Source: an uncultured Armatimonadota bacterium (lineage in GTDB: Bacteria > Armatimonadota > Fimbriimonadia > Fimbriimonadales > Fimbriimonadaceae). From it: a stretch of DNA of 64,000 nt. The DNA is taken from the NCBI GenBank assembly GCA_903833215.1, contig CAILEM010000009.1:62001-126000 (forward strand), in the 5' to 3' direction. Both the position numbers and the translations under genes were made by a program. Under the pieces are notes generated by a model that made no database searches, was not told where the DNA came from, and saw nothing but the letters and a program-made list of their open reading frames with translations. Shown here piece by piece: positions 30,334 to 59,705 of the stretch (positions are counted from its first letter, which is position 1; the number at the start of each line of letters is the position of its first letter).

Positions 30334-31128
30334 ATGATCTTTTCTGCAGCCGCAATTTGCTTTTTGACGTTCGCCCAGACGCGAGGGACTACTCAGCCGA
30401 ACGATCCGATTTTAACCCCGCCGCGTGAGCTTCAAGCGAATGGCTTCTACACCAAGTGTGTGTACTTCAGAGGTCTTCCGATCTTGGGTTCCAAGAACGT
30501 ATCCGATTCCGCCCTTAGGAAAATTGTTGTGACCTTCACCAAAATGCTTGCCAAAGTTCCTGTTTCCACAACCGACGAACTGGTCAAAGCTGGGAGCCAC
30601 TATTCCATTATCGCGGCGATTGAGGGCCAGACGGATCTGCCGGAGTATCAGGATATGCGCAACGATCCGAAAACCGACTGGAATAAGCGAGCTCGCGGAC
30701 TGGGTGGATTGATTACCAGTGGTGGAGAAGAGAATATCCTCGAGTTTCCCAATGACCGTTATCGCGGAGAGTGCATCTACATTCACGAATTCGCACACAC
30801 GCTTGCGAATTATGCATTCGAGAGAGCTGATCCTAAGTTCAAATCCGACCTGGATTCTGTTTATGCCAGGGCGATGGCGGCGGGACTGTGGGAGAACACC
30901 TACTCCAAGACCAACCGCGATGAGTATTGGGCCGAAGGGGTGCAGATGTACTTTGATTGTGCCCGGAGCGCATCTCCTGCCAACGGAGTTCACAATGAGG
31001 TGTGCAATCGCAAACAACTCCAAAAGTACGATCCGGGATTGTACGCCTTGATTGATCGAGCGTTCGGGCACAACCGGTGGCGATACGAGGGTTCGTACAA
31101 TACAGGCAAGGGAGTCAGTCTTCGTTAG
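30334..31128 (+). CDS. Secreted zincin-type metallopeptidase-like protein
   Basis: A 264-residue exported protein (signal peptide residues 1-14, IFSAAAICFLTFAQT). The zinc motif is HEFAH at 151-155, followed by TLANYAFERADPKF, and a plausible third ligand glutamate lies in DEYWAEGVQMYFD about 50 residues later. This spacing fits gluzincin-like secreted peptidases, although no family name is certain. The stretch SRRYRGECIYIHEFAH-like before the motif is well formed. It is monocistronic, divergent from the ADP-ribosylglycohydrolase-family gene. Confidence 0.7.
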   Translation: MIFSAAAICFLTFAQTRGTTQPNDPILTPPRELQANGFYTKCVYFRGLPILGSKNVSDSALRKIVVTFTKMLAKVPVSTTDELVKAGSHYSIIAAIEGQTDLPEYQDMRNDPKTDWNKRARGLGGLITSGGEENILEFPNDRYRGECIYIHEFAHTLANYAFERADPKFKSDLDSVYARAMAAGLWENTYSKTNRDEYWAEGVQMYFDCARSASPANGVHNEVCNRKQLQKYDPGLYALIDRAFGHNRWRYEGSYNTGKGVSLR

Positions 31129-42750: not shown

Positions 42751-42778
42751 TTGCTTTTGACGACAATTGTCGTACAAT
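42751..42778 (+). promoter_or_regulatory. Promoter of the first blaI-M56 operon
   Basis: TTGCTT (42751-42756) and TACAAT (42773-42778) are separated by 16 bases. The first operator palindrome lies in the spacer, so repressor binding would block polymerase. Confidence 0.55.
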
Positions 42779-42804
42779 GCCTCAGACGACATATGTCGTC
42801 TGAG
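42760..42804. promoter_or_regulatory. Two BlaI-type operator palindromes, module 1
   Basis: A perfect 14-base palindrome ACGACAATTGTCGT (42760-42773) and a perfect 24-base palindrome (42781-42804, inner part ACGACATATGTCGT) share ACGACA-nn-TGTCGT. Their centres are 26 bases apart. They flank the -10 box and the expected transcription start, as operators of BlaI/MecI repressors do. Confidence 0.8.
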
Positions 42805-42810
42805 TTTTGC

Positions 42811-43188
42811 ATGGCAAAGAAACCAGGAGTGGGACGGGCGGAGGTCGAGGTGCTGCGGTATATCGCAGACCACCCCGGCGTGGCTGTGAGCGAGGTCGCG
42901 GAGCACTTATTTTTAACGAAGGGCCAGACGAGGACGACGGCGCTAAACACGATGGAACGTCTTCGAACGAAGGCGTATCTGAGGCGTGAGCAAGTTGACG
43001 GAACATTTCGTTACTTCGCGGTGGACGGAAAGATCCGTATGTTCGAGGGCCTCGTTGATGACTTTGTGCAAGGTGTCCTAGGCGGCTCGGTTACTCCCTT
43101 GGTCGCCTACCTCACCAAGCAGGTCGAACTCAATCCAGAGGAAATCGCTGAGCTAAGGCACATTGTCGACAAGCTGGAGGAGCACTAA
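42811..43188 (+). CDS. BlaI/MecI/CopY-family repressor, module 1
   Basis: A 125-residue winged-helix repressor. The DNA-binding domain (GRAEVEVLRYIADHPGVAVS; RTTALNTMERLRTKAYLRRE) is followed by a dimerisation tail with the BlaI-type segment FVQGVLGGSVTPLVAYL. ATG at 42811 follows the second operator by six bases. Members are released from DNA by proteolysis triggered by a membrane M56 partner, which is encoded immediately downstream (two bases after this stop). Autoregulation through the adjacent palindromes is expected. Confidence 0.9.
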   Translation: MAKKPGVGRAEVEVLRYIADHPGVAVSEVAEHLFLTKGQTRTTALNTMERLRTKAYLRREQVDGTFRYFAVDGKIRMFEGLVDDFVQGVLGGSVTPLVAYLTKQVELNPEEIAELRHIVDKLEEH

Positions 43189-43189
43189 G

Positions 43190-45274
43190 TTGTCTTCTGG
43201 AATCCTCGCCACAGCTTCGATCCAGGGTGGCCTGTTGATTGGATTGGTTCTGTTAGGATTTCGATTTGTACCGTCGCTTCACCCGGATTATCGTGTTTGG
43301 ATTTGGCGATTGGTCTATCTGAAGCTCGCATTGCTCATGCTGCCGGTTCCACCGATCGGAATTCGAGTTTTGCCTACCCATTCAGTGACAAGCACAGGTG
43401 CCAATTTGCAGCCTGTCGCGGGTGCAGATTTCGAAGCCAAGGCGTTAGCATCCACCACTTCAAACCCTGCGAGGTCGTCGATGGATTATTGGATGCTTCT
43501 CTGGTTCGCGGGAGTCATGTTGGCGGTTGGTCGTGACCTTACCGGCTATCGAAATTGCCGGAAGCTAATTTTGAGTAGCGAGGCCGCGAAGAATCGGTCC
43601 CTTAACTCGACCCTACAGCAACTCACCTATAACGCCCGCCTTGGCCGTCGCCCCATTTTGCTCCAGTCGGCAAAGGTTCAATCGCCCTTCGTCCTAGCGG
43701 GTAAGACGCCTGCGATTGTCGTTCCGGCGAAGGTCGAGGACTCCGATGATATGCGGCTTATGTTGGCCCATGAAGTTGCCCATGTCGTTCGCAAAGACCT
43801 TGCTTGGAACTCTTTTCATTCCATCGTTCAAGCACTTTTCTTTTTTCATCCACTCGTCTGGTTTGCGGCTCGATCCGTCCATCAGGCGCAGGAGTCTGCG
43901 GCTGACCTTGCCGCCGTTCAAATCGCAAATTCGTCACCTCGCAGATATGCCGAGATGCTTATGCGTGCCACCGTCGTCCCTTCCAAGCCCGGCATCGCAA
44001 TGTCGGGAAGTCTGGCGATGAACAGTTCCTATCAAAGCATCCACCAGAGACTTACGGATATGAAGAACTCAACTACAAAACCGACTTTTGCCAAGTTAGC
44101 CTTTGCTGCAGTACTTGCGGCGACAACCATTGCCGCCACCCCAGCCTATCGTTTGGAAGCTAGGAACGATTTTTTGTCGTCTCCTGTCAGGCAAAGCAAT
44201 ACGGTAGGCCAGACCCTGGGCAGTCAAAAAGGGACAAGAGATATCCAAACGCAAGTCACCAGTATGTCTTCGGGCTTACTGCCTGTTAGCGAAGTCACGA
44301 AGGGCTCCCGGGAATCGAAGTCAGGTGAAGCTGACGTTCCAGTCAGCGAGGCGGCGAACTCGGATCCTGAGTCCCCAAGGGCGGATGATTCTTCTCCTAC
44401 TGCAGACACGGACTCACCTGAGTCAGTCGGCCTGACACAGGGTGGAACGGGCGGTTCAGGCGGCGGTGCTGGTGGTCAAGGAGGCCAAGGCGGCGGTGCC
44501 GGAGGCGCAGGTGGTTCTGGTGGTCAAGGTGGCCAAGGCGGAGGTGCTGGCGGAGCAGGTGGTTCTGGCGGTCAAGGTGGCCAAGGCGGCGAGTCTGGCG
44601 GTGCGGGTGGTGCAGGTGGCGCTCCCGGTCAGCCAGGTCAGCCTGGCGGTGGGGGCTATGGTGGAGCCGGTGGTGCCGGAGGAGCTCCAGGTCAGCCAGG
44701 TCAACCTGGCGGTGGGGGCTATGGTGGAGCCGGTGGTGCTGGAGGAGCACCAGGTCAGCCAGGTCAGCCGGGAGGGGGTGGTTATGGCGGAGCCGGTGGT
44801 GGTGCTGGAGGCGCTGGCGGCGGTGCGGGGCAACCAGGACGTCCCGGCCGTGGTGGTCGTGGTGGCCGCGGAGGAGCTGGTGGTGCCGGGGGTGGAGCTG
44901 GTGGCCGAGGAGGTGCACCGGGCCAGCCTGGACAACCAGGAACTGGCGGGCAGGGTGGCTCCGGCGGAGGTGCTGGTGGTCAAGGTGGCCAAACCGTTCA
45001 GCTCGACTACGGTCGAGGCACGAGCCAAGTTGGCTTTGGAGGAACTCGGGATGAATTTGGGGGCGGGCAATCCATCTCTACCCTCGACGGTGAAGAAGTC
45101 CTCGTTGCCACTCCGATGAATCGGGCAGGTGTTATGGCGGGGGCAGGAAACCGGCCAGTTTCGACGGCCAGAAGGACTCCGAACCAACGAACAGTCTCCG
45201 CAACTCGCAGGATGAATGGTCCGGCGAAGCTACTGAAGAAAGGACGCATTCTTGGTCGTAAACGACGGGCATAA
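43190..45274 (+). CDS. M56 (BlaR1-like) membrane metallopeptidase with Gly-rich repeat tail
   Basis: A 694-residue membrane protein. Three N-terminal helices (to about residue 115) are followed by the M56 zinc motif HEVAH at 194-198, FFFHPLVWFAARSVHQAQES with a further ligand-type glutamate, and a fourth helix (about 295-315). There is no penicillin-binding sensor domain. Instead residues ~417-601 are almost entirely Gly, Ala, Gln and Pro in tandem repeats, ending in a basic tail (RRMNGPAKLLKKGRILGRKR). TTG at 43190 is chosen because GGAGGA lies eight bases upstream, two bases after the blaI stop. Predicted role: sense an extracytoplasmic signal and cleave the module-1 repressor. Confidence 0.82.
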   Translation: MSSGILATASIQGGLLIGLVLLGFRFVPSLHPDYRVWIWRLVYLKLALLMLPVPPIGIRVLPTHSVTSTGANLQPVAGADFEAKALASTTSNPARSSMDYWMLLWFAGVMLAVGRDLTGYRNCRKLILSSEAAKNRSLNSTLQQLTYNARLGRRPILLQSAKVQSPFVLAGKTPAIVVPAKVEDSDDMRLMLAHEVAHVVRKDLAWNSFHSIVQALFFFHPLVWFAARSVHQAQESAADLAAVQIANSSPRRYAEMLMRATVVPSKPGIAMSGSLAMNSSYQSIHQRLTDMKNSTTKPTFAKLAFAAVLAATTIAATPAYRLEARNDFLSSPVRQSNTVGQTLGSQKGTRDIQTQVTSMSSGLLPVSEVTKGSRESKSGEADVPVSEAANSDPESPRADDSSPTADTDSPESVGLTQGGTGGSGGGAGGQGGQGGGAGGAGGSGGQGGQGGGAGGAGGSGGQGGQGGESGGAGGAGGAPGQPGQPGGGGYGGAGGAGGAPGQPGQPGGGGYGGAGGAGGAPGQPGQPGGGGYGGAGGGAGGAGGGAGQPGRPGRGGRGGRGGAGGAGGGAGGRGGAPGQPGQPGTGGQGGSGGGAGGQGGQTVQLDYGRGTSQVGFGGTRDEFGGGQSISTLDGEEVLVATPMNRAGVMAGAGNRPVSTARRTPNQRTVSATRRMNGPAKLLKKGRILGRKRRA
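44471..44809 (+). repeat. In-frame tandem repeats encoding a Gly-rich tail
   Basis: Two full 48-base units plus a partial one start at 44471 (GGQGGQGGGAGGAGGS). Three 63-base units follow at 44621, 44684 and 44747, each starting APGQPGQPGGGGYGGA. Third-position differences between units show selection for the protein sequence rather than a recent simple expansion. Confidence 0.85.
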
Positions 45275-46884: not shown

Positions 46885-48675
46885 TTACTTGTTCACCATG
46901 ATGGTGTAAACACTACCTTCGACCCGAAAAGTCAGTGGCTGCTTGACCGACGACAAGATTGTCTGCAATGCAAAGTCAACGTCGATTCCCTCGAGCGAGC
47001 ACGTTACGGTGTCCGTTAGAACTTCCGACTTGATGACGTAGTTCAACTTGTACGCCTTAAAAATGCTCTTTAGCGCTTCATGGATATCGGCGTTGTCTAG
47101 CACGATTCGCAACCGACCGTTCTCGCCGACTGTGACGTTAGCGCGGGGGGCAGCCTCGGTGGCTGGGCTTGTTTGCATCGGTACATCGGCGACTTGTGCA
47201 ACTTCGGATCGAGGAGCATTAGCAGCTCGAACCGGTGGTAGTGAGGCTCGTGACGCAGGAAATGGAGCAATTGCTGAAATTGGGGCCACGCTAAAACGAA
47301 CTTGGCCGTTTTCTGCCGTGATTCTCGCAGGGGGTAATGCAGGTCGAGGCGGAGCTGGGCTAACAGTGCGAGCAGGCAGCCCGCCTGGATATGGAGGTTC
47401 AGCGATTCTAGCCGCCCCCTCACGGAAATCTTTGAACGCGAGTGGATTGGGCGGAACGACCCCTCTTACCTTGGCTGCCGAGGCTTTGACCTTGGCGATC
47501 TTGGTTGGATGAGCTGATTTGTGAGTGTGCTTGGAGGGTGATTGTTTGGCAGCATCTGACTTCTTCGAGTTTGAAGCTTGAGCGGTAACCGTCCAAGGAA
47601 GAGCGCATACGGCGGCAAGGGCGATAACAAAGGTGCTGGCTGATCGATAGCGGTGCGCGTTTGCGCTGGTGAGAGTCTTGAGCATGGAGATCCTCCTTTG
47701 AATGAGCCGATAGCCGAATGCCGTTCCGAGCACTGCCATCGAAGAACGTGACTGAGCGGAGTCGATGAGAAGTCTTGCGTATGCAGCGGGGGAACTACCG
47801 CTCATACGCAATGCATCTGAATCGCACGCCGCCTCTCGTGCAGCGGCACCCTCATGGGCAGCCAACCACGCGAGTGGGTGGAAGTAGAACAGCGACTGGG
47901 TAATCGCCGGGATAATCCCGAACCATAGGTCTTTGCGTCGAAGGTGGGCGATTTCGTGTGCGATCGCCATTCGAACCTGCGGTTCAGTAAGACTGGATGC
48001 CTTTTGTGGAGGCAAAACGATTGCTGGCCTCGCCCAACCGGCAAGAAGGGGACACAACGCATCTGGGGATTCGATGAGTCGCGGAGACGAAATCCGGTAA
48101 TCGATGCTGAACTCTTGCACGAGTTCATAGACCGGTCCCGACTCGATGGGAGTAGCATTTCTCAAAAGTCTTCGCGTGCCGGCCAGGCGACGAATCGAAA
48201 TGGCGAGACAGGTGAGCACACCGAGTACCCAAAAGAAGCTTGCCACCGCCATAAGCGAAAGGTGAGCCTTTGGTGCCTGTGTAAGGGTGATGCCAAGCAG
48301 TCTCTGAGGTTGTGTCTCAGATGAAACTGGAAAAGACGGTTGAGTCAGTACCGCCGTCGAGAAGTTCGAGCTTGTGGCTGTTGATCCAGCATCGCTGATT
48401 GCCGGCTGCGACATGTGAGTCGCAGGCGCCTGGTCCCCTTCGTGTGCAGGAAGAATAGGTAGTGCTAAGGGGCTGATCGCAACCAGTCGAATGAGCATCT
48501 GAAGCGATGCAATCCACCACAGCCAGGATTTTCCAGCGGCGGGTAGTCCTTTGAAGAGCCTGCAAATGACCCAAATGGCGAGGATGAATGCGCCGCCTTG
48601 TAGGCTGGTCCGAATGAGAGTAGGACCAAGTGTGGCTCCCCAGGCGTTGAGTGAAATAATCCAGTTCTGGCTCAT
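46885..48675 (-). CDS. M56 (BlaR1-like) membrane metallopeptidase with STN-like C-terminal domain
   Basis: A 596-residue protein with N-terminal membrane helices and the zinc motif HEIAH at 240-244, followed by RRKDLWFG, YFHPLAWLAAHEGAAAREAA and a further membrane helix (about 345-362). A Lys/Ser/Ala/Pro-rich linker leads to residues ~513-596. This tail resembles the STN (secretin and TonB N-terminus) fold: LRIVLDNADIHEALKSIF, NYVIKSEVL, VTCSLEGIDVDFALQTIL and a closing VYTIMVN strand. There is no penicillin-binding domain. The ATG overlaps the stop of the module-2 blaI by four bases. Likely a signal-responsive protease acting on that repressor. Confidence 0.8.
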   Translation of the reverse strand: MSQNWIISLNAWGATLGPTLIRTSLQGGAFILAIWVICRLFKGLPAAGKSWLWWIASLQMLIRLVAISPLALPILPAHEGDQAPATHMSQPAISDAGSTATSSNFSTAVLTQPSFPVSSETQPQRLLGITLTQAPKAHLSLMAVASFFWVLGVLTCLAISIRRLAGTRRLLRNATPIESGPVYELVQEFSIDYRISSPRLIESPDALCPLLAGWARPAIVLPPQKASSLTEPQVRMAIAHEIAHLRRKDLWFGIIPAITQSLFYFHPLAWLAAHEGAAAREAACDSDALRMSGSSPAAYARLLIDSAQSRSSMAVLGTAFGYRLIQRRISMLKTLTSANAHRYRSASTFVIALAAVCALPWTVTAQASNSKKSDAAKQSPSKHTHKSAHPTKIAKVKASAAKVRGVVPPNPLAFKDFREGAARIAEPPYPGGLPARTVSPAPPRPALPPARITAENGQVRFSVAPISAIAPFPASRASLPPVRAANAPRSEVAQVADVPMQTSPATEAAPRANVTVGENGRLRIVLDNADIHEALKSIFKAYKLNYVIKSEVLTDTVTCSLEGIDVDFALQTILSSVKQPLTFRVEGSVYTIMVNK

Positions 48676-49094
48676 TTGCTTTGCTCCTCTTGTGCCTCAA
48701 GCGATTCCACCATCCGGCGCAATTCCGCGACTTCGCGATCGTTCAGCTTGCCTGAGTCGGCGAGATATGTTACAAACGGCGAAAGCGAACCTCCGAGCGA
48801 TCGCTGAACGAACTCTCCGACAAGTCCTTTGAGAAGATCGTCTTGCTCAATTTTGGGGGAGTACTGAAAGATTCCCTCTACCTTTTTGCGGGTTAGGTAT
48901 CCCTTTGTTCTCAGCCGCTCCATCACTGTGAGGATGGTTGTCCGAGCGAGACCTCTAGGTGCGCCGTACACCTTGGCAGTTTCTCCTACCGTAATGGGTG
49001 CATTTTCAGAGACGAATCGCAAGACTTCCAACTGCTGGTCACCCAGCGACTGGTGGTCTTCGGAGACAAGATTTTGCTTAGGGATTTGGCTCAT
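48672..49094 (-). CDS. BlaI/MecI-family repressor, module 2
   Basis: A 140-residue winged-helix repressor from ATG at 49094; an in-frame extension to 49121 runs into the operator and is rejected. The HTH (LGDQQLEVLRFVSENAPITV; ARTTILTVMERLRTKGYLTR) and the BlaI tail (FVQRSLGGSLSPFVTYLA) are intact. It forms an operon with the STN-tailed M56 gene by ATGA overlap. Two near-identical operators lie directly upstream and extend towards the divergent GH30-like gene, which the repressor might also control. Confidence 0.88.
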   Translation of the reverse strand: MSQIPKQNLVSEDHQSLGDQQLEVLRFVSENAPITVGETAKVYGAPRGLARTTILTVMERLRTKGYLTRKKVEGIFQYSPKIEQDDLLKGLVGEFVQRSLGGSLSPFVTYLADSGKLNDREVAELRRMVESLEAQEEQSK

Positions 49095-49102
49095 GTGCTT
49101 CG

Positions 49103-49148
49103 TGACTACGACGATAGTCAATATAACACATGACTACGCTGATAGTCA
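49103..49148. promoter_or_regulatory. Two BlaI-type operators, module 2
   Basis: TGACTACGACGATAGTCA (49103-49120) and TGACTACGCTGATAGTCA (49131-49148) share TGACTA and TAGTCA arms with a six-base centre. Their centres are 28 bases apart. A TATATT -10-like box on the minus strand (49125-49120) overlaps the first site. They lie in the 121-base gap between this blaI and the divergent GH30-like gene. Confidence 0.8.
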
Positions 49149-49215: not shown

Positions 49216-51090
49216 ATGAAGGTGTTACATCGCCGTATCTGTCGTTTAGTCTGTTTGACGGCAATCTTTGGGGTCGTGTCGTCAGTTTTAGGATTTCCGC
49301 AAAGTGCTTTACAGGGAGGAAATGGCCGCCCTGGCGTGATTCCGGATGATGCCTTTACCAAGATCCCTGTTGGTGGCCTTCAACGAACGGGCAGTGAGGC
49401 AAAGATTCTCTTTGATAAGAATCTCTTCGGCAATTTTTTGCGTGTCGTGGTCCGGAAGAGTGCTACGGAAACCAACGCGACTCAGCTAACAATTCCCATC
49501 ACCGAGAGTGTGAATAAGGGCGATGTCCTCGACGCAGCCATTATGATTCGAGGAGCCGAAACGGGAACGAAGGCACCTGCACGACTCGAGTTTCTCTTTG
49601 AACGTACGTTGGATCCATGGACAAAGTCGGTTACCCAGGAACTGGTTAGCTCAAAGGACCCAATCAAATGGAAGTGGCTTCACATTCCATTTGTAGCAGC
49701 AGAGTCTTACCAACCTGGTCAAGCAATGGTCTCGATTCGCTTCGCAACTCAGCGTCAAACAGTTGACATTGGTTGTGTGTCAGTGGAGAACAGGAGACAC
49801 GAATCAACAATCGAATTCCTCCGTGAGCTTGCGGTAGAAAGCGATCACATTGGAAAAGTTGTAGTTGACGTTAACAAGAGCATCGTTCGCCAGACATTGA
49901 TGGGATTTGGTGGTGACTTCTGCCAGCCAAGATACGGATCGACGGAACCGATGGACGTGGTCGGCCGCTATGCGCTTGACCACCTCAATGTCGTTCACGC
50001 ACGTATAGGCTTTCCTTTGAACTACTGGGTTCCAGAGCCCAATCAGTATCGCGATGACGCACAGGCCCATGCTGCGATTCTTGCGCTGAAGGAAATGAAT
50101 CGCCGACATATTCCTACCGTGCTCACGATCTGGGAAGGTCCAGGTTGGATGCTAGGTGGTAAGCCAGAGCAGTCTGGTCGCGAACTTGAACCACAAAAAT
50201 ATCAGGTTTGTATCGACTCCATCCTTAGGTTCATGAAGACGGCAAAGGAGAAGTATGGGGCGACGGCTGACTACTTCTCATTCAACGAGCCGGATTATGG
50301 CGTCAACTTCAAGTTCACGTCGAAGACCTTGGGAGACTTCATCCGGCTGGCTGGACCGCAGTTCAAGGCAGCGGGATTCAAAACGAAGTTCATTGTTGGA
50401 GATACCGCGGGTGGTTCAACGTATCGCGACTATGCCTATCCTTTGCTTACAGACAAGTCCATTTCGGCTTATTTGGGACCGCTGGGATTCCACTGCTGGG
50501 ATGGCCTGACAGCGTCCGAGGCCAGCTATAAAGCGATTGCCGCGCTTGGTCGACAATTTCACAAACCTGTATGGTGCCTTGAGGCTGGGCATGATTCCGG
50601 GCTTTGGCAAGCCGACAACCCTTGGGGAACTTGGGAAAACGCGCTTCGAACTGCCATGGTTTACGAGCGAACGCTCCGACTGACTGAAGCGACGCTGATG
50701 GATTACTGGACCTATCAGGATAACTATCCGATAGTCAATAAAGTCGGTCCGAAACCATATCCAGTGTTTGGAGTGATCAAGCAGATGGAAAACGTCTGTG
50801 CCCCGGGATCCCATGTTGTGGCTACGCAAGTCAGCAGTGACGATGTTCAAGCCTTGGTGACGATGGGGCCGGGAAAGACTCGATTCGCGGGAATGATCAT
50901 CAATCCAAAGGGAAGCGGCACCGTAGTCGTCCGGGGGCTTCCGGTCGGTGCCATGGTGCAGGTTGTTTTGAGTGACAAGTCGGCGCAAGGGAAGAAGGTG
51001 ACGAGTGCGTTCGTCTCCAAAGAAGGAACGATCACATTGAGCGTCCCGGCGAGATCCGTCGTGACGTTCGCGAAAATCGTTCGGGGTTAG
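49216..51090 (+). CDS. Secreted GH30-like (clan GH-A) glycosidase
   Basis: A 624-residue exported enzyme. A signal peptide (RLVCLTAIFGVVSSVLG, to about residue 26) and an N-terminal beta-sandwich of about 170 residues precede a TIM barrel. Within it the acid/base E358 sits in YFSFNEPDYG and the nucleophile E456 in WCLEAGHDSG, as in GH30 glucosylceramidases and xylanases. A small C-terminal beta domain (AGMIINPKGSGTVVVRGL) is also GH30-like. The exact family is likely but not certain. It is divergent from blaI module 2 and shares its operator region. Confidence 0.75.
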   Translation: MKVLHRRICRLVCLTAIFGVVSSVLGFPQSALQGGNGRPGVIPDDAFTKIPVGGLQRTGSEAKILFDKNLFGNFLRVVVRKSATETNATQLTIPITESVNKGDVLDAAIMIRGAETGTKAPARLEFLFERTLDPWTKSVTQELVSSKDPIKWKWLHIPFVAAESYQPGQAMVSIRFATQRQTVDIGCVSVENRRHESTIEFLRELAVESDHIGKVVVDVNKSIVRQTLMGFGGDFCQPRYGSTEPMDVVGRYALDHLNVVHARIGFPLNYWVPEPNQYRDDAQAHAAILALKEMNRRHIPTVLTIWEGPGWMLGGKPEQSGRELEPQKYQVCIDSILRFMKTAKEKYGATADYFSFNEPDYGVNFKFTSKTLGDFIRLAGPQFKAAGFKTKFIVGDTAGGSTYRDYAYPLLTDKSISAYLGPLGFHCWDGLTASEASYKAIAALGRQFHKPVWCLEAGHDSGLWQADNPWGTWENALRTAMVYERTLRLTEATLMDYWTYQDNYPIVNKVGPKPYPVFGVIKQMENVCAPGSHVVATQVSSDDVQALVTMGPGKTRFAGMIINPKGSGTVVVRGLPVGAMVQVVLSDKSAQGKKVTSAFVSKEGTITLSVPARSVVTFAKIVRG

Positions 51091-51334: not shown

Positions 51335-53647
51335 CTATGGGTTAACTCGCCATCGGAGGACGGTTAGGGTCAGGGGTGGGAAGGTGTAGTTGAACTTTGG
51401 GAGCGATGCTTTGAAAGTGCTTTTCACTGGCACGATCCTTTTCGGTTCTAGAAATGAATTGAAGACGTCCGGCTCGTCGGCAAGCTTGGTGTCGCCTAGC
51501 GTCCAGACGTCGGCTTCACCGGTGGTGTTGATGAACTCGCTGAGGTCAATCGTCCGCGGGACTTCGTTCAGTTTCTGATTGACGGCAAACAAGGTTAGCC
51601 ATCTTCCATCTTCGGAGAGGGTTGCACTTAGGTCGGGACTCAAGTCGGCTGGAAGAGCTGATTCGATCTTCAGGGGGCGCGTCCCGGCGCAATTCGCGTA
51701 GAGCGACTGGGCATAGTAAGTCGGGGTCAGAAACATACTGGCCCGATTGGTTTGGATGATTCCTGAGCAGAAACTGTTGGCCAAGTTCGAGCGGTTGGCG
51801 ATGGCAACTAAATCCGCCTGTCGGTGAAGCAGGTTCTGATATCTCGAGCAGTCGAGGGCATTCTTCAGACTCCAAAGCTTGGCCCGTGGTAGGCCGATAT
51901 CTCCAGCAGTGGTGTTCCACTCGGTGACGGCGACATGTAGCTCCTTTCCACCTCCGCTACGAGCAATCATCGAGCGTGTTTGTGCCAGTTCCTGCAAGGT
52001 TCCTGAAAGGTTTTCGACATCGTACTGATGTGGGCTGACATAAGATAGATACGGAGCGGCTCCTTTGATGAGGGCGTCGCTGGGAAAGCTGGAGAGGAGT
52101 TCGATCTTGGGATCGACAGCCAGCATCGCCTTGCAGAACTCGGGAACGGCTTTCCAGTACTCTTCTCCCCACCGCTCATTTCCGATTTGCCAGTATTTGA
52201 TACCGTACGGTTTTGGATGACCGTTTTTCGCTCGCTGGGCACCCATTGGCGTCTCGATGGACCCGTTGAAGTACTCGACTTCATTTGCGGCGTCCTTAGG
52301 TGTCTTCTTCTCATATCGAACACAAATGAGAGGCTCCGCTTTCACTGTTTGAATGAGCTGAACGACCTCTTCAAGACCCGCGCCCATCGGCTGCATTCCA
52401 CCCCACGCGGCGAAGGGAGTGCGATGGTCGGGATCCCCAATGGTATCGGTCCACTCGAACGTGCCCAGGTTGGCATCATCAAGAACGCTCCCGCCAACCC
52501 TGATGACTCCGGGTTTGAGGGCGGTTAGCGCTTTGACGACATCGGGTCGCCAGCCGCCGATGTTGCTCTTCGGCATGAGCGAGGCGTTTTCAAGCCACCA
52601 CGACCCCGGACCGGTGAATTCGATTGCTAAGGAAGCATTGTCGGTTGTCCTACGCGGGATGAGGCTCGTGGATACCTTCTGCCATCGCTTCGTGACGGGC
52701 AAGGTTGCCGTGGAGATTTCGTCGCTACCTTTATAGAGGCGAACCTTTAGGTGACTTACGCCCCCAGTGCCTCTCACGAAGATCGAAAAAGTGCAGGCTT
52801 GCCCTTTCTCAACAGAAATACCGTCTTGGGCGATTCCACCTTGGCACCGCGGACCGTCGGTGAGAACGATGTGCTTCGAGACTTTTCCGCTAATGAATGT
52901 AGTGGAGTCTTGAGAGACTTGAAGTCGGTTGGCCTGTCCAAACGGGTACCAGGGATTTTCCTTGAAATCGGTCTCTGCGACAAAATGAAACTTATACGGC
53001 GTGAGTCCCTCAAAGCTGTTGTCGTAGAGTTTCTCTGCCCACATACTTGGCACGAGATCGCATAGGTACTCAATGAATTGGCCGTATTGCATCGGGTTGA
53101 TTCGGCCAGGGCAAAACGGTTTTTTGGTGAGGCGGATCGTGCTATCGCTGGGGCGGATTGGCTCCAAGGTTAGGTCGGAAAACCATGTCGTTCCGATGCC
53201 CTTTCCCCAACCGAACTGGAAGAGGCAGGCACGGATGTTTCCATCGTTTGGACCCACGAAGTACACATCTTCTCGGGTCCAGTCGGTCGTTCCCACATGG
53301 TTGTGCCCGCTCGCCAATGTAACCCCGTCGGGAGCATGTTGCACCTGTATGGTTCCATAGACGGGAGATGTGCCGGGCTTAATGTCGGCCGTCTTGACCC
53401 AACCGGAGAATCGGTAGATTTGTCCAGGCTGAACCTTTAGAACTTGTCCCAAAGCCGTATCTGTAGGTGCAGTAGATGATATTCTGAGCGAGTCAGAAGC
53501 ACCGTGCTTCGTCTTGGTGTCGACCTCAACCGACGGCTCTGCGCCGCAGGTTGTTCTTGTCCAGGCGACAGTTCCGTTGGCGAAATTCCCGTTCAAGAGA
53601 ACCGCCTTTTGAGCTATCAGAACGGCGACAATGCCAAGCACGATCAT
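51335..53647 (-). CDS. Secreted GH51-type alpha-L-arabinofuranosidase with N-terminal carbohydrate-binding domain
   Basis: A 770-residue exported protein. A short signal peptide is followed by a CBM4/9-like beta-sandwich (about residues 17-160; NGNFANGTVAWTRTTCG, YRFSGWVKT). The catalytic part has a GH51-like layout with YGQFIEYLCDLVPSMWAEKL at its start. Within it, acid/base E491 sits in WQIGNERWGEEYW and nucleophile E576 in VAVTEWNTTAG. A C-terminal beta domain ends the protein. Expected activity is release of arabinofuranose from arabinan or arabinoxylan. The ATG lies within a perfect palindrome and seven bases after a TAAGAT box. Confidence 0.82.
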   Translation of the reverse strand: MIVLGIVAVLIAQKAVLLNGNFANGTVAWTRTTCGAEPSVEVDTKTKHGASDSLRISSTAPTDTALGQVLKVQPGQIYRFSGWVKTADIKPGTSPVYGTIQVQHAPDGVTLASGHNHVGTTDWTREDVYFVGPNDGNIRACLFQFGWGKGIGTTWFSDLTLEPIRPSDSTIRLTKKPFCPGRINPMQYGQFIEYLCDLVPSMWAEKLYDNSFEGLTPYKFHFVAETDFKENPWYPFGQANRLQVSQDSTTFISGKVSKHIVLTDGPRCQGGIAQDGISVEKGQACTFSIFVRGTGGVSHLKVRLYKGSDEISTATLPVTKRWQKVSTSLIPRRTTDNASLAIEFTGPGSWWLENASLMPKSNIGGWRPDVVKALTALKPGVIRVGGSVLDDANLGTFEWTDTIGDPDHRTPFAAWGGMQPMGAGLEEVVQLIQTVKAEPLICVRYEKKTPKDAANEVEYFNGSIETPMGAQRAKNGHPKPYGIKYWQIGNERWGEEYWKAVPEFCKAMLAVDPKIELLSSFPSDALIKGAAPYLSYVSPHQYDVENLSGTLQELAQTRSMIARSGGGKELHVAVTEWNTTAGDIGLPRAKLWSLKNALDCSRYQNLLHRQADLVAIANRSNLANSFCSGIIQTNRASMFLTPTYYAQSLYANCAGTRPLKIESALPADLSPDLSATLSEDGRWLTLFAVNQKLNEVPRTIDLSEFINTTGEADVWTLGDTKLADEPDVFNSFLEPKRIVPVKSTFKASLPKFNYTFPPLTLTVLRWRVNP

Positions 53648-53679
53648 GTAGCCAATCTTACTTCGATTGGCTACATGTA
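53647..53679. promoter_or_regulatory. Perfect 13-base inverted repeat over the GH51 start, probable operator
   Basis: CATGTAGCCAATC (53647-53659) and GATTGGCTACATG (53667-53679) flank a seven-base centre. The -10-like TAAGAT (53657-53662, minus strand) and the ATG lie inside. If transcription starts at the ATG, only one arm is transcribed, so a protein-binding DNA operator is more likely than an RNA hairpin. Confidence 0.6.
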
Positions 53680-53755
53680 GGGGCGAGGCGTGCCTCGCTT
53701 CTTGCTTCCGCTGTCACTGACTGCCGTTAGGTAAGCAGCGCACGCGCTGAACCTG
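53679..53755 (-). repeat. Dispersed repeat R3, copy B (inverted)
   Basis: Reverse complement of the element at 31213-31292: GTAGGGGCGAGGCGTGCCTC, GCTTCTTGC, then the palindrome AGCAGCGC-AC-GCGCTG. It starts at the edge of the GH51 operator palindrome. Another CGTGCCTCGCT segment near 53780 looks like a further fragment. Confidence 0.55.
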
Positions 53756-53819
53756 CACCGGAACTGCGGCAGTAGACGTGCCTCGCTAACTTTCCTTTTG
53801 TGTGGCAACCACCATCGGA

Positions 53820-55130
53820 TTATGCCGATGCTTTTCTGAAAGAACGTAATCTCTGCTCGGCTTCAGGCCCGAACTCTACTAGGCGTTTGTAAAGCGTTAG
53901 CTGCACAATTGCCCGAACCTTGTTGAGGTCTGCTGGATCATTCGGCCCAAGCTGGAAGTACGTGTCGCCTCTGAGATAGTCGGTTAGGAATCGGAGGCCG
54001 AGTTCAAGAGTGATCGCCTGAACGGCAAACACCATCATCGACACTTCGTGATCGGTGACCTCTTCGGCCGCTAACAAAAATCCTTTGGCGACTGCCTCGT
54101 AAACATCCTGGTCAACCTTGATCTTCGAAAGGTCGCGCTCTTTTTCTCCCGCCACGTTGACCATCGACCGTTGAAGGTCGCCGTAATCGGCGAGCCAGGT
54201 GAATGGCATGATCGTGTCGAGATCGACAAGTGACTTCACCCGTCCCGTTTCGGTGCAGAACAGGAAGTTCTCTATCTTGGTGTCGCCATGAATGAGCGTG
54301 TGTCGAATGCGACTGTCGTCAATGGCAGCCCATAAGCCGAGTGCAAAGGGTTCCCTCTCTTCGACGATCTGGAGATATGGAGCCAACTCAGGATCGGATC
54401 TGCGTTCCGCATATTCTTCGTCGGACAAAGCAACAAGAAAATGCTGCTGGGTGCTCTTTCGTAGAATCGGGTCTTGGGGAAGCAGTTCCTCAGCACTCGC
54501 CAAGGTGCGGTTGCAAGCCATGACCGAATGGAATTGTGAGTAATAAAGCGGCGTGTCACGATACCCAGGTAAGGAACCGTCGATCGATTTCGGATCAATG
54601 GATGAGGTGAGATCCGAATAGATGGCTAAGCCTCGTCCGACTTCTTCTGCGAGTTTGAGTTGCGCTTCGCGGCTACTAATTTCGCTGAGGCTCTTGTAAC
54701 TTGACGAATCGGGAATGCGAATCATCATTCGCCAAACGGACCAACCGTGCTCATCTGTCAGATCTAGGAATTCCTGACCGTAGCGAGTGCTGATCAATTC
54801 GATAGGGACCCAGAATGGATCGCCTTTTCCGTCTCTCAAGGATTCGGCTTGTGCACGGATGGATGCCGTCATCGAATTCATCACTCGATAGGGCATCGTG
54901 AAAACATCGGAGTTCACTTTCTGGAGGAGGTATTCGGTCCCGCCAGCGCGCACCTCGTATGTGTGGAGGTTAATGTTTCCGCGTCCAGGAAATGCGGACA
55001 CTCGAACCGGCCCTGAGATGTCAAATTGGCTGGCGATCCACTCGATATCTGAAATCGAATAGTCATTGATCGATCCGATCAGATGTGGCGGCTTTTCCAG
55101 AAGGGGGGTCGTAATCGAATCGTCGATCAT
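53820..55130 (-). CDS. APH-fold sugar kinase, N-acetylhexosamine 1-kinase-like
   Basis: A 436-residue protein of the aminoglycoside-phosphotransferase fold. The catalytic loop HGDTKIENFLF and the metal-binding aspartate in SLVDLDTIMP are present, with an N-terminal lobe (GNINLHTYEV, LLQKVN). Length and the opening GNIN..Y....G..YLLQ pattern match NahK-type kinases, which form N-acetylhexosamine-1-phosphate, rather than antibiotic-resistance enzymes. With the GH20 hexosaminidase elsewhere in the window this fits amino-sugar salvage, but substrate is inferred. A TATACT -10 box lies 20 bases before the ATG. Confidence 0.7.
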   Translation of the reverse strand: MIDDSITTPLLEKPPHLIGSINDYSISDIEWIASQFDISGPVRVSAFPGRGNINLHTYEVRAGGTEYLLQKVNSDVFTMPYRVMNSMTASIRAQAESLRDGKGDPFWVPIELISTRYGQEFLDLTDEHGWSVWRMMIRIPDSSSYKSLSEISSREAQLKLAEEVGRGLAIYSDLTSSIDPKSIDGSLPGYRDTPLYYSQFHSVMACNRTLASAEELLPQDPILRKSTQQHFLVALSDEEYAERRSDPELAPYLQIVEEREPFALGLWAAIDDSRIRHTLIHGDTKIENFLFCTETGRVKSLVDLDTIMPFTWLADYGDLQRSMVNVAGEKERDLSKIKVDQDVYEAVAKGFLLAAEEVTDHEVSMMVFAVQAITLELGLRFLTDYLRGDTYFQLGPNDPADLNKVRAIVQLTLYKRLVEFGPEAEQRLRSFRKASA

Positions 55131-55368: not shown

Positions 55369-56403
55369 ATGTCCATCCTTCTTGGTTTGTTAGCATTTGG
55401 CTTACACGGTTTGAATGAGCAAGCGAAAGGCTCAAACTGCCTCTTGGGCTTGGCCGTAAACGTTACAGCGACCGGTGGGGCCAAAGAGTTGATCGACTCG
55501 ATTGTCGAGGAGAAGAAGCTTGGCTGCAAGCTGATGGCCTCGTCAGTCAAGTGGGGCGATTTGGAAGCCTCTCCCAGTGTGATCAAGATTGATAAGTTGC
55601 GCAACGACTTGGCCAACGCTTCGAATTTCGGGTTTACGCCGGTTCTTACGCTTCAGACGATCGATACGAATAACCGCACCCTCCCACCCGATTTGATGGC
55701 GGAGCCGTTCGATTCGCCCAAGATGCTTGGCCGACTTGAAGCGTTGATGGATGCTGTCGCGAATGTCTTACCGAAAGGTCCGGGGCCGGTCATGCTGGGC
55801 AATGAGGTAGATGCGTATTTGCTAGGTCACCCGTCCGAGGTCCGAGCCTATGAGACGTTCCTGCATTCCGCGCGTAAGAGGCTCAAGGAGAAGCGCCCGG
55901 GTACATCCGTTGGAGTAACGACGATGTTCGGCACGATGGCAGCAAACTTATCCCTCGTCCGCGAGCTACAGGATGGGATGGATTTGGTTGCGATGACTTA
56001 CTATCCACTAGGGGCGAATTTCCAGGTTTTGCTGGTCAGCGATGTCGGGAAACACTTTGGCACGATGGTCCAATTCTGTGGCAACCGGAAACTGTATGTC
56101 CAAGAAGCGGGATATCCAGCCGCACCTCTCTTGAACAGTTCAGAAGAGAAGCAGGCCAAGTTTGTGGATGCGCTTTTCGATACGATGAAAAGGCAAGAGT
56201 CACGTCTCTACGGTGTGTCCTACTTCTTGTCGATCGACTTCAGCGATAAACTCGTGGATACGTTTGTGAAGTATTACGGACTGAGCGCCGACACCTTCCG
56301 AGCCTATCTGGCCACGCTTGGATTGAAGGACCAGTTTGGTACTCCAAGGCTAGCGTGGCCAGAATTCAAGAAACGAGCCATTGAGTTCACTGGCGGGTCA
56401 TAG
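55369..56403 (+). CDS. Exported clan GH-A TIM-barrel glycosidase, family uncertain
   Basis: A 344-residue protein with a short N-terminal hydrophobic signal (ILLGLLAFGLHGL). Candidate catalytic glutamates are E146 in VMLGNEVDAYL (acid/base, the GNE form) and E246 in LYVQEAGYP (nucleophile), about 100 residues apart as in GH53 and related clan GH-A enzymes. The barrel strand VAMTYYPLG also fits. A GH53 endo-galactanase-like role is possible but not secure. It converges on the third M56 gene, the two stop codons overlapping by six bases. Confidence 0.6.
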   Translation: MSILLGLLAFGLHGLNEQAKGSNCLLGLAVNVTATGGAKELIDSIVEEKKLGCKLMASSVKWGDLEASPSVIKIDKLRNDLANASNFGFTPVLTLQTIDTNNRTLPPDLMAEPFDSPKMLGRLEALMDAVANVLPKGPGPVMLGNEVDAYLLGHPSEVRAYETFLHSARKRLKEKRPGTSVGVTTMFGTMAANLSLVRELQDGMDLVAMTYYPLGANFQVLLVSDVGKHFGTMVQFCGNRKLYVQEAGYPAAPLLNSSEEKQAKFVDALFDTMKRQESRLYGVSYFLSIDFSDKLVDTFVKYYGLSADTFRAYLATLGLKDQFGTPRLAWPEFKKRAIEFTGGS

Positions 56404-59271
56404 CTTGAGGCGGAAGACCGATTCGACATCGGTCGTTCCTCGAACGTGCGTCTCTTTGTATCCCTTGAAAATCGACATCTTGTAACTTCCCGCCGGGATG
56501 CGGTCGTACATGAACCGTCCTTGCTTGTCCGTGCGAACCGAGAAGTCGGAAACTCTGAGAGATTCATTGACCCAGACTTGAGCGTTTTCAATCGGCTTGT
56601 TGAATTGGTCGACGACTTTTCCGTAGATGGAGTGCCCCTTTGCGAGTGTAATCGGACTCAACCGAACGTCTTTGCCAGCGTTGACGGTAAGGGTAGAGCA
56701 CTGATAGTCGGCATGGCCCAAAGCCCGAACCATGATGATTGCTTGCGTTCCCGGATAGATTCCTTTGAAGTGAAAAGTCCCGTCTGGTCCTGTTCGCCGA
56801 TCCCACGGTGCGAGCGCATCCAGGTCGCCGAGTGTGTCTCCTTGTTGCCCATTGAAGCCAATCGTGACTCTTGCGTTTCTCATGGGCTTGCCGCTTGCGT
56901 CATTGATGACGCCTGTGATTCCACCGAGGGCAACTCGGTGCAGCCGGATAACCGCTGAACCGTTCTTGGGTCGAACCCTTTGGGCACTGAACTGACCCCC
57001 AACGTTGGCGAAGAACCACACCGTCTTCGCCTCTTCTTTGGTCAAGTTGAGCTCAGCTTCACCTTTTCCATCAGTGGCGACGATGCTCTGCATTGGGCCG
57101 CTCGAGAATCCATACATCATCGGGCGGTTTGGAACCGGATTCCCATTTTCATCAAGGAGTAGGCAATGCACGACAGAGAAGTTGTCCAAGTTCGGGGCGT
57201 TGAGGACGAGCTTCTTCGATTCGCCGTCGTGTACGACGACAGGAGTAACGGCCGTCTGCCCTCGGTCATGAACGGTGATATCGTAGCTTCCAGCTGGTAT
57301 ACGCTTTGAGAACGAGCCGTCTGCTCCGACCATCATTCCGAATGGAGTTGTTGAATCGTTGGGAATCGACTTATCTAAGAACCTGATAGAGACCCTGGCT
57401 GGGCGGTGCTTTCCTCCCTCAATGTTCCCACTGACGAGGGCGCCTCTTTCGACCTTAAGATCAATCCGCTTCGATTTCTCAGTGACCGCAGTTACGGCCG
57501 CCCGTCGAAGTATCCAGTCATCCCCCAAACCCTGAGGCAACATTCCCCAGATCATGAAGCCGCCTGGTAGCAGATGAGGCAAGTCGTAGTTCCCGTCAGA
57601 ATCTGTGATTGTTGATCTGTACCCCCTGCTTGGTGAAGTTGCTACCACCGCAACTCCTGCGATAGGTTTGCCCTGCAGAGTCACTTTTCCAAAGACTTTC
57701 GCGCTCCGCACTGCGATGAGTTTTATTTGCTGCGGCTGATCCAACTCAAAACTTCTGCCCTCAGATTCTGTTACCAATCTGTCCGTCCAACCAGTCAAAG
57801 TTGAGCGACCTTTGACTGGCATATTACTTAGGGTGGCGATGCCTGACTGGTCGGTTACGCCTACGAAGAAGTTGCGTGCCTCCTCCATCAGATAAGTCAC
57901 ATAACCCGGTGTATTCAGGAAATCAGGGGCGACCGGCATGCCAGCGACAGGGGCACCTGTCCGATCTACAACCTTTACCCGAAGCTGGTGACTCGGCACC
58001 AGCTTGATAACCGTAGTTTTCTTTCCTGACAAGTCGGAAAGTCCAACGAACTTGTCGCCTTGGAAGGCAAGCAGAGAAGTCGCCGCCAATTTCGGAATAC
58101 TAAATTGATATCTGCCATTTCTGTCCGATTCAGTTTTCTCAAGCTTGACCTTCATCGTGCCTAAGCTTGTGATTTGACAAACGACCGTTGCACCTTGGAT
58201 AGGTTTGTCGGCTTCATCCACGACTTGCCCGGAAATGATCTGCATGTCTTGTGCCTTTGAGTTGGTTGGATTAGCCCTAAGCGACTGGGCAAAGCCAATA
58301 CTGATCGATACAACCAAGAACAGAGTGAGCCAGATCGAAGTTGGTGCGACACTTCGGTCTGAAGGGACCAGGATTCGGCGGATACGTGATAGGAGGTCCC
58401 CGTTTCGAGCCGCCATTGCCAGCCGTGGTGATGGATGGCGTGTCTGCTCAAGGCCAACCAATGCTCGGGCATATTGTTGCTTGCTGCCAATGACTTGGAT
58501 AGCCATGTCGTCGCAGCAATGCTCTCGCTCCTTTCTCACGATGCCCGAGATCCACCAGATGGCGGGATGGTAGAAGAGCACCGTCTCAATAACTGATTGG
58601 AGTAGGTTGACGACATAGTCGTGGCGTCGAATGTGAGCTAATTCGTGTGCCAGAAGTGCTTCGACATCTTCGAAACTTAGCCTGGTGGCCAAGCTCGCCG
58701 GGAACAGGATCATTGCGCGAAGCGTGCCGATGACGGCAGGTGTATCCACTTTGTCGGACATCCGGAGTGTTGGGCATCGGCGGATCCCAAAGCGTTTGCA
58801 TAGGGCGTAAGTGAGGTTAACCCACCTTGGATCCGATTCTGATGCGACGTTTCTTCTCAAGCGGGCAATCATCACCAAACCTCCCGCCAACCGTATGCTC
58901 ATGACGGCCAAACCAATCAGCCAACAGATGACGACGGAAGGAAGGTACGCCTCAAGCCGGCTGGATAGCGATGCGCTCTCGGATGGAGTCGAAAAAGTCG
59001 GCGCTTGGGTATGTAAGGTCGGCTTGGCTAACTTCGGAGCAAACGTTGCCGTTGGAATCGCCTGGATGGGCGCGGTCTTGGGAGCCACCACCAAGTAAGT
59101 AGCAATCGGTGAAGCAAAGCAGAGACAAAGCGCAACAAGCGCGATCCCATAACGCACATTTGAACTTGCGCGCCGTAACGCTAACGTAGCAACGAAGAGT
59201 AGGAGCGCAATTGCAGCGATCTCCCAAATCGAATGAACAAGAGCCCAGCCAATGGCATTTTCGATACTCAC
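56398..59271 (-). CDS. M56 (BlaR1-like) membrane metallopeptidase with seven carboxypeptidase-regulatory-like repeats
   Basis: A 957-residue protein. The first ~325 residues are the M56 module: three membrane helices, zinc motif HELAH at 209-213, IRRHDYVVNLLQSVIETVLF, the HCCDDMA segment and a fourth helix. The remaining ~600 residues hold about seven beta-sandwich repeats of the carboxypeptidase-D regulatory type (IISGQVVDEADKPIQGATV; KVFGKVTLQGKPIAGVAVV; GGITGVINDASGKPMRNARV; SIYGKVVDQFNKPIENAQVW). No penicillin-binding domain is present. GTG at 59271 overlaps the module-3 blaI stop. This arrangement, M56 plus such repeats, is known from several environmental phyla, but its ligand is unknown. 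Confidence 0.85.
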   Translation of the reverse strand: MSIENAIGWALVHSIWEIAAIALLLFVATLALRRASSNVRYGIALVALCLCFASPIATYLVVAPKTAPIQAIPTATFAPKLAKPTLHTQAPTFSTPSESASLSSRLEAYLPSVVICWLIGLAVMSIRLAGGLVMIARLRRNVASESDPRWVNLTYALCKRFGIRRCPTLRMSDKVDTPAVIGTLRAMILFPASLATRLSFEDVEALLAHELAHIRRHDYVVNLLQSVIETVLFYHPAIWWISGIVRKEREHCCDDMAIQVIGSKQQYARALVGLEQTRHPSPRLAMAARNGDLLSRIRRILVPSDRSVAPTSIWLTLFLVVSISIGFAQSLRANPTNSKAQDMQIISGQVVDEADKPIQGATVVCQITSLGTMKVKLEKTESDRNGRYQFSIPKLAATSLLAFQGDKFVGLSDLSGKKTTVIKLVPSHQLRVKVVDRTGAPVAGMPVAPDFLNTPGYVTYLMEEARNFFVGVTDQSGIATLSNMPVKGRSTLTGWTDRLVTESEGRSFELDQPQQIKLIAVRSAKVFGKVTLQGKPIAGVAVVATSPSRGYRSTITDSDGNYDLPHLLPGGFMIWGMLPQGLGDDWILRRAAVTAVTEKSKRIDLKVERGALVSGNIEGGKHRPARVSIRFLDKSIPNDSTTPFGMMVGADGSFSKRIPAGSYDITVHDRGQTAVTPVVVHDGESKKLVLNAPNLDNFSVVHCLLLDENGNPVPNRPMMYGFSSGPMQSIVATDGKGEAELNLTKEEAKTVWFFANVGGQFSAQRVRPKNGSAVIRLHRVALGGITGVINDASGKPMRNARVTIGFNGQQGDTLGDLDALAPWDRRTGPDGTFHFKGIYPGTQAIIMVRALGHADYQCSTLTVNAGKDVRLSPITLAKGHSIYGKVVDQFNKPIENAQVWVNESLRVSDFSVRTDKQGRFMYDRIPAGSYKMSIFKGYKETHVRGTTDVESVFRLKL

Positions 59272-59648
59272 GACTTTTCCTCCAAGCGCTCGAGGAGCTG
59301 TCGGATTTCCGCTAGTTCTTCTTCGCTAGATTTTTTCGATCCGAGAACATGAAGCGCCAACCGATGGGCTGATCCGCCAAAAGCACGATCGACGAAGTCA
59401 TCAAGGAGACTCCGCTGAGTGTCCGATTCACTTCGCTGAGCGGCATAGATGTGAGCCCGGTTCTGCTCGTTTCTGGTGACCAGGCCCTTTTCAGCCATGA
59501 TCTGCATCAACTTGAGAACCGTGGTGTAGCCAGTCGTGCGAGTTTTGTTCAGCTCTTCGAAGACATCTCGAACGGAGCAGGGGCCGATACGCCAGAGCAC
59601 ATTGAGAATCTCGAGTTCGCTGTTTGTTGGGCGCGAGTCCATGTTCAT
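59268..59648 (-). CDS. BlaI/MecI-family repressor, module 3
   Basis: A 126-residue winged-helix repressor (TNSELEILNVLWRIGPCSVR; TTGYTTVLKLMQIMAEKGLV) with the BlaI-type tail FVDRAFGGSAHRLALHVLG. It is closer to canonical BlaI (LW segment) than the other two copies. ATG at 59648 lies six bases after a perfect TATAAT, so its mRNA is probably leaderless; a second ATG at 59642 is possible. It overlaps the M56 start by four bases. Confidence 0.9.
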   Translation of the reverse strand: MNMDSRPTNSELEILNVLWRIGPCSVRDVFEELNKTRTTGYTTVLKLMQIMAEKGLVTRNEQNRAHIYAAQRSESDTQRSLLDDFVDRAFGGSAHRLALHVLGSKKSSEEELAEIRQLLERLEEKS

Positions 59649-59652
59649 GTTT

Positions 59653-59705
59653 CCATTATACGAAGAGTTTCGTATAATGGAGGCGCAATCTACGAAAAGT
59701 TTCGT
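59653..59705. promoter_or_regulatory. Promoter and two BlaI-type operators, module 3
   Basis: A perfect 12-base inverted repeat (CCATTATACGAA, four-base centre, TTCGTATAATGG; 59653-59680) contains the minus-strand TATAAT (59655-59660). Its inner ACGAAGAGTTTCGT recurs as ACGAAAAGTTTCGT at 59692-59705. Centres are 32 bases apart. The core differs from operators of modules 1 and 2. Confidence 0.8.

Follow-up and report, generated by a model that had tools for sequence, protein, structure and literature searches.

Transcription that enters the IS10 transposase gene from outside is subject to fold-back inhibition, in which a hairpin present only in the read-through RNA hides the start of the gene. 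Operators of the BlaI/MecI type (Penicillinase_R) consist of dyads over promoter and start, with one private sequence per paralogue, and for BlaI_1845 of Clostridium thermocellum the half-site is reported, in the available part of the source, as GACTAT (PMC8457756). In leaderless genes of Actinobacteria and Deinococcus-Thermus, a TANNNT element has been described that precedes the start codon by approximately 10 bp (PMC3160421, accessible portion). GTAG-tagged REPs are characterized, in the available text of a 2013 survey, by the GTAG tag, a short covarying stem and an arrangement in pairs, and neither 'Armatimonad' nor 'Fimbriimonas' occurs in that text (PMC3733652).

The start of a GH51-type alpha-L-arabinofuranosidase gene in the window (the whole 64-kb stretch of DNA analyzed here) recalls these systems. 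Its start codon and putative -10 box are enclosed in a perfect inverted repeat, which resembles BlaI/MecI-type operators in being a dyad with a private sequence over promoter and start, and differs from their boxes in its half-sites, its 7-bp spacer and its single occurrence. The promoter itself is like the leaderless promoters of Actinobacteria and Deinococcus-Thermus in the placement of TANNNT before the start codon, and differs from them in the perfect dyad on top of it. The flanking element shares the GTAG tag, the short covarying stem and the pairing of the REPs surveyed in PMC3733652, whereas the palindrome is unrepeated and holds GTAG within its stem. The best single reading, which we place somewhat short of an even chance, is that the palindrome is a private operator for a putative dimeric repressor. 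The features referred to below are:

51335..53647 (-): GH51-type alpha-L-arabinofuranosidase, 770 aa, with CBM_4_9 and Alpha-L-AF_C domains (Pfam, structure matches)
53645..53677 (-): perfect 13-7-13 inverted repeat, putative operator, covering the -10 and the GH51 start codon
53645..53647 (-): ATG start codon of ORF 51335-53647(-), the closing three bases of the ATG-side arm
53655..53660 (-): TAAGAT, putative -10 box, 7 nt before the GH51 ATG
53677..53700 (+): GTAG-tagged REP unit GTAGGGGCGAGGCGTGCCTCGCTT, beginning on the palindrome's final base
53731..53762 (-): second REP unit, degenerate and oppositely oriented, completing a REP pair (read against other copies)
53820..55130 (-): APH-domain gene upstream of GH51 on the same strand, a possible source of read-through
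48672..49121 (-): BlaI-type repressor gene (Pfam), with GH51 as its neighbor in two of the three relatives; the double box of this gene, 49104-49147, is unlike the palindrome
59652..59681 (-): perfect 13-4-13 dyad over the -10 of the BlaI gene 59268-59648, for comparison (palindrome and dyad scans)

The palindrome and the GH51 promoter

The two 13-nt arms of the palindrome (53645-53657 and 53665-53677) are 100% complementary across a 7-nt spacer, and on the minus strand it reads CATGTAGCCAATC-GAAGTAA-GATTGGCTACATG, the final three bases being the GH51 ATG. An earlier note on this DNA had reported the perfect 13-7-13 repeat at 53647-53679; the repeat is real, but its true place is two bases further left, and the sequence at 53645-53677 bears out the accompanying statement that both the TAAGAT box and the ATG lie inside it. 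One half of TAAGAT (53660-53655) falls in the spacer and the other in the ATG-side arm. The palindrome is located in the 172 nt separating the APH-domain gene from the GH51 gene, which it enters by the start codon; the nearest upstream stop is 159 nt away and a start 13 nt away. Six of the 13 pairs of its stem are G+C, and no T run follows on either side. A palindrome scan of the window agreed with the earlier note that no similar full palindrome occurs at the other glycosidase genes there, and also detected two perfect palindromes absent from that note, both at BlaI-type regulator genes (59652-59681 and 42781-42804). The nearest solved structures to the GH51 protein are arabinofuranosidases, e.g. 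3s2c and 3ug3.

Among 260 ATG-first ORFs from the sampled genes, 49 present a TANNNT ending 6-9 nt before the ATG, against approximately 13 expected from the background at offsets 13-39 (about 3.2 each). The GH51 gene has its TANNNT within this 6-9 nt interval, and the arrangement of its start is, as far as sequence can indicate, that of a leaderless promoter, a geometry that appears common in this genome. Transcription of GH51 most likely proceeds from such a promoter, with TAAGAT as its -10 and a predicted transcription start at or beside the A of the ATG. A scan of 53400-53900 with a generic sigma-70 consensus returned no promoter and no -35 match, and no Shine-Dalgarno-like sequence was seen before the ATG on reading the sequence.

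Orthologs of the GH51 gene were identified in three of 19 congeners, at 64-67% identity. They carry TGTAATCT, TGTAACAT and TGTAGTAT (TGTANNAT or TGTANNCT type) 6-7 nt before the ATG, and in all four orthologous genes the ATG is followed by ATC or ATT. The palindrome is not conserved, the best dyads at the three ortholog starts scoring 6, 3 and 3. Since the -10 and the ATG are common to the orthologs and the palindrome is not, its distal arm is taken to be the newer part. The order APH, GH51, BlaI, BlaR1 is retained on one strand in relative G004; in G012 one gene lies between GH51 and the APH, BlaI and BlaR1 genes, and in G019 the GH51 and APH genes are found together close to a contig end.

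Comparison with chance and with terminators

The palindrome is far beyond chance expectation. When the 56-nt start region was shuffled 8000 times with dinucleotides preserved, the palindrome's dyad score of 13 was never reached, the shuffle maximum being 10. Among 85 leaderless-like starts drawn from 561 called ORFs, a score of 13 was observed only at GH51 and at one BlaI gene; one further real start scored 9, a value that none of 425 shuffles of these starts attained. The wider search covered 696,219 sampled bases, made up of 632,219 bases taken from the 168-contig assembly to which the window belongs, plus the window; the 632,219 bases are about one tenth of the genome and a non-random selection (20 kb from the beginning of each of contigs 1-20, together with longer contigs). 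It contained 29 distinct perfect repeats with arms of at least 12 nt and loops of up to 12, whereas two shuffles of the same bases together yielded one repeat of arm 12 and none of arm 13 or more. A chance origin was rejected on the strength of these three sets of shuffles, of the start region, of the leaderless-like starts and of the sampled bases.

Perfect repeats in this genome are mostly found where terminators usually are: 22 of the 29 follow a called stop codon at a distance of 5-66 nt, distances to starts and stops being approximate because ORF calling was crude (longest ORF, greedy). Another count places six of the 29 within 45 nt of a called start, namely the GH51 palindrome, the two BlaI-gene dyads (59652 and 42781) and three others (L070 883, L046 10244, L076 14124) with G+C-rich, A/T-edged, terminator-like stems. 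The preponderance of terminator positions is what could be said for viewing the GH51 palindrome as a terminator; its A+T-rich stem, the start codon within it, the absence of a T run on both sides and the 0/8000 shuffles speak against a terminator or a chance palindrome, and we regard either as very improbable. A terminator scan of the site called no minus-strand terminator, and an intrinsic terminator was rejected for want of a G+C-rich stem followed by a T run on the transcribed strand.

Searches for further copies

The palindrome motif, searched as 11-N7-11 with up to three mismatches, has no second copy in the genome and is absent from the 19 congeners. This search is the genome scan that the earlier note proposed, and by the note's own criterion, no other occurrence near carbohydrate genes, its outcome speaks against the note's idea. 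Membership of a repeated element was rejected for lack of a second copy, which also means that nothing points to a regulator binding at its own promoter as well. The 13-nt arm, with at most one mismatch, gave seven matches including the two palindrome arms (control, 3), and the other five all lie inside called ORFs. A 9-N7-9 core with up to three mismatches recovered the palindrome itself and two places within ORFs (control, 1). The shorter core GCCAATC-N7-GATTGGC, with up to two mismatches, occurs at 63 places (e.g. C35:55321) versus 21 for the reversed control, a threefold excess that perhaps stems from codon composition. Of 14 non-self loci fetched for this 7-N7-7 core, 10 are within ORFs and four are intergenic; among the latter, L097 is terminator-like and L095 lies in a 118-bp gap between divergent ORFs. 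Comparison with known RNA families gave only one sub-threshold match, located elsewhere (E 0.66); no tandem repeats were found, and a literature search of limited reach returned no paper on such a site.

Private dyads at BlaI genes

Nine BlaI genes are present in the genome, three of them in the window, where they form three BlaI-BlaR1 (M56) pairs (42751-45274, 46885-49121 and 56398-59648). In a by-eye reading, eight of the nine have a dyad or box pair of their own near the start, with mutually different sequences, L102 for instance displaying a near-perfect 45-bp dyad. Private dyads over starts are thus an established layout in this genome, even if a terminator of the preceding gene could account for some of them, as at L106 and L108. 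The dyad at 59652 also lies 57 nt past a stop and could have a terminator role as well. When two BlaI-gene dyads were searched in the genome in the same manner as the palindrome, one returned only itself and the other itself plus one three-mismatch place inside an ORF (control, 1). Because these dyads too are without a second convincing copy, the uniqueness of the GH51 palindrome is weak evidence against an operator.

The boxes of the BlaI gene neighboring GH51, GACTAYNNNNRTAGTC, are paired 27-28 bp apart and exact in the window (49104-49147), in G004 and in G012 (L111 11211-11254 and L112 5567-5609). The GACTAT half-site given for C. thermocellum BlaI_1845 in the available part of PMC8457756 resembles GACTAYNNNNRTAGTC. 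In this genome, then, a conserved operator has the appearance of these boxes, which the GH51 palindrome does not share. A BlaI operator was rejected for the palindrome, since sequence and spacing differ; at the palindrome there was no match to the boxes of the neighboring BlaI, allowing up to two mismatches, or to those of another BlaI, allowing up to one. On the far side of the BlaI double box, gene 49216-51090 (plus) may share the boxes.

REP units beside the palindrome

The REP pattern of the adjoining element, with up to three mismatches, has 72 copies in the genome versus none for the reversed control. Stems covary between copies (GCGAGGC/GCCTCGC, GCAGCGC/GCGCTGC, GCGACGC/GCGTCGC and others) and the units form inverted pairs. 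The palindrome lacks the hallmarks of a GTAG-REP, namely repetition and a GTAG outside a short stem, and the adjoining element has them. Perfect repeats with arms of at least 9 nt lie within 10 nt of GTAG in six of 72 distinct REP copies from the fetched loci, as compared to 26 of 4000 random intergenic positions, a control unmatched for distance to the stop codon. Five of the six abutting hairpins are T-rich at their edges and terminator-like (L140 and L141 being near-copies), GH51 being the exception. A search for a RAYT transposase gene flanked by this REP gave seven Y1_Tnp matches, and no GTAG hairpin was seen in those seven loci (about 1.5 kb on each side at most). As an observation in its own right, the family (53677-53762, L114-L183) forms inverted pairs with covarying stems at no fewer than 72 places in an Armatimonadota genome.

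Operator, REP-junction product or read-through control

If the palindrome is an operator, the 33-bp dyad, once occupied by a repressor, would leave neither the -10 nor the start point accessible to RNA polymerase until an inducer, possibly a sugar, released the repressor. The suggestion in the earlier note that the geometry fits a repressor operator gains support from the dyad over the -10 and start, from its non-chance character and from a BlaI-repressor gene of the window whose start is laid out alike. Its further proposal of a sugar-responsive regulator of the LacI or GntR type fared less well: the motif is single-copy, and no LacI, GntR or AraC domain was detected among 39 window ORFs scanned with Pfam (the window has more ORFs, mostly spurious). 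Of the features by which operators are recognized, the site displays dyad symmetry beyond chance and overlap with the putative core promoter, TAAGAT and ATG both lying inside the dyad; recurrence at co-regulated genes or at a regulator's own gene was not seen in the genome and 19 congeners, nor was conservation before the three orthologs. The dyad, moreover, adjoins a REP pair and has no -35 match, and GH51 is not a regulator, whereas the BlaI genes are self-regulating. Because of the uniqueness, the non-conservation and the REP, the operator reading is kept below one half. Ranking close behind it, as a serious rival that we consider a real though lesser possibility, is an origin without any regulatory role, in which a REP pair was inserted beside the GH51 promoter and, at the point of junction, a fold-back (template-switch) event made an inverted copy of the segment with promoter and ATG, so that the perfect palindrome exists in this lineage only. 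The coincidence of the palindrome's outer edge with the start of the REP unit, the more frequent abutment of hairpins to this REP family than to random intergenic positions, and the non-conserved, unique palindrome with its newer distal arm would all be explained by such an event, but the other five abutting hairpins, being terminator-like, represent a different situation, and no fresh inverted copy of flanking sequence was seen at other REP junctions among the copies read.

The third-ranked explanation, which we deem unlikely, places the control in RNA. Read-through mRNA from the APH gene, containing both arms, would hide the AUG in a 13-bp hairpin and go untranslated, while mRNA begun inside the palindrome would be translated. 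The predicted fold of the read-through RNA reaches -21.5 kcal/mol with the AUG in the stem (z -8.0), whereas RNA starting at the ATG folds at only -6.2 (z -0.4); the APH gene does lie upstream on the same strand, and the lack of a Shine-Dalgarno-like sequence before the ATG accords with this scheme as well. That same lack also cuts the other way, given that read-through mRNA may be poorly translated in any case; read-through is itself hypothetical and might be stopped by the intervening REP hairpins, and the palindrome is not conserved in G004 despite the same APH-GH51 order. Leaderless RNA cannot form the hairpin because the distal arm precedes its start, which also makes an attenuator on GH51's own mRNA unlikely if that mRNA is leaderless. 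Should the scheme hold, improbable as we judge it, only GH51's own promoter could yield enzyme, and the same DNA dyad could serve as an operator too. The likeness to IS10 would lie in a read-through-only hairpin over the start, and the difference in a metabolic, leaderless gene and in the standing of the GH51 case as a prediction from sequence; if true, it would constitute fold-back protection of a metabolic leaderless gene. The preferred operator reading, if correct, would supply a known DNA target with which to isolate a regulator of hemicellulose use from a little-studied phylum. Leaderless promoters appear common in that phylum, and a dyad at this position would bear directly on the promoter and the start codon alike. 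A REP-junction product would instead be a warning that striking promoter palindromes can arise without regulation.

Elsewhere in the window, the ORF at 30334-31128 (+) has a weak Pfam match to the metallopeptidase-like domain ATLF (24.8 bits, under the cut-off of 27.4), and its predicted product probably has a distant peptidase fold.
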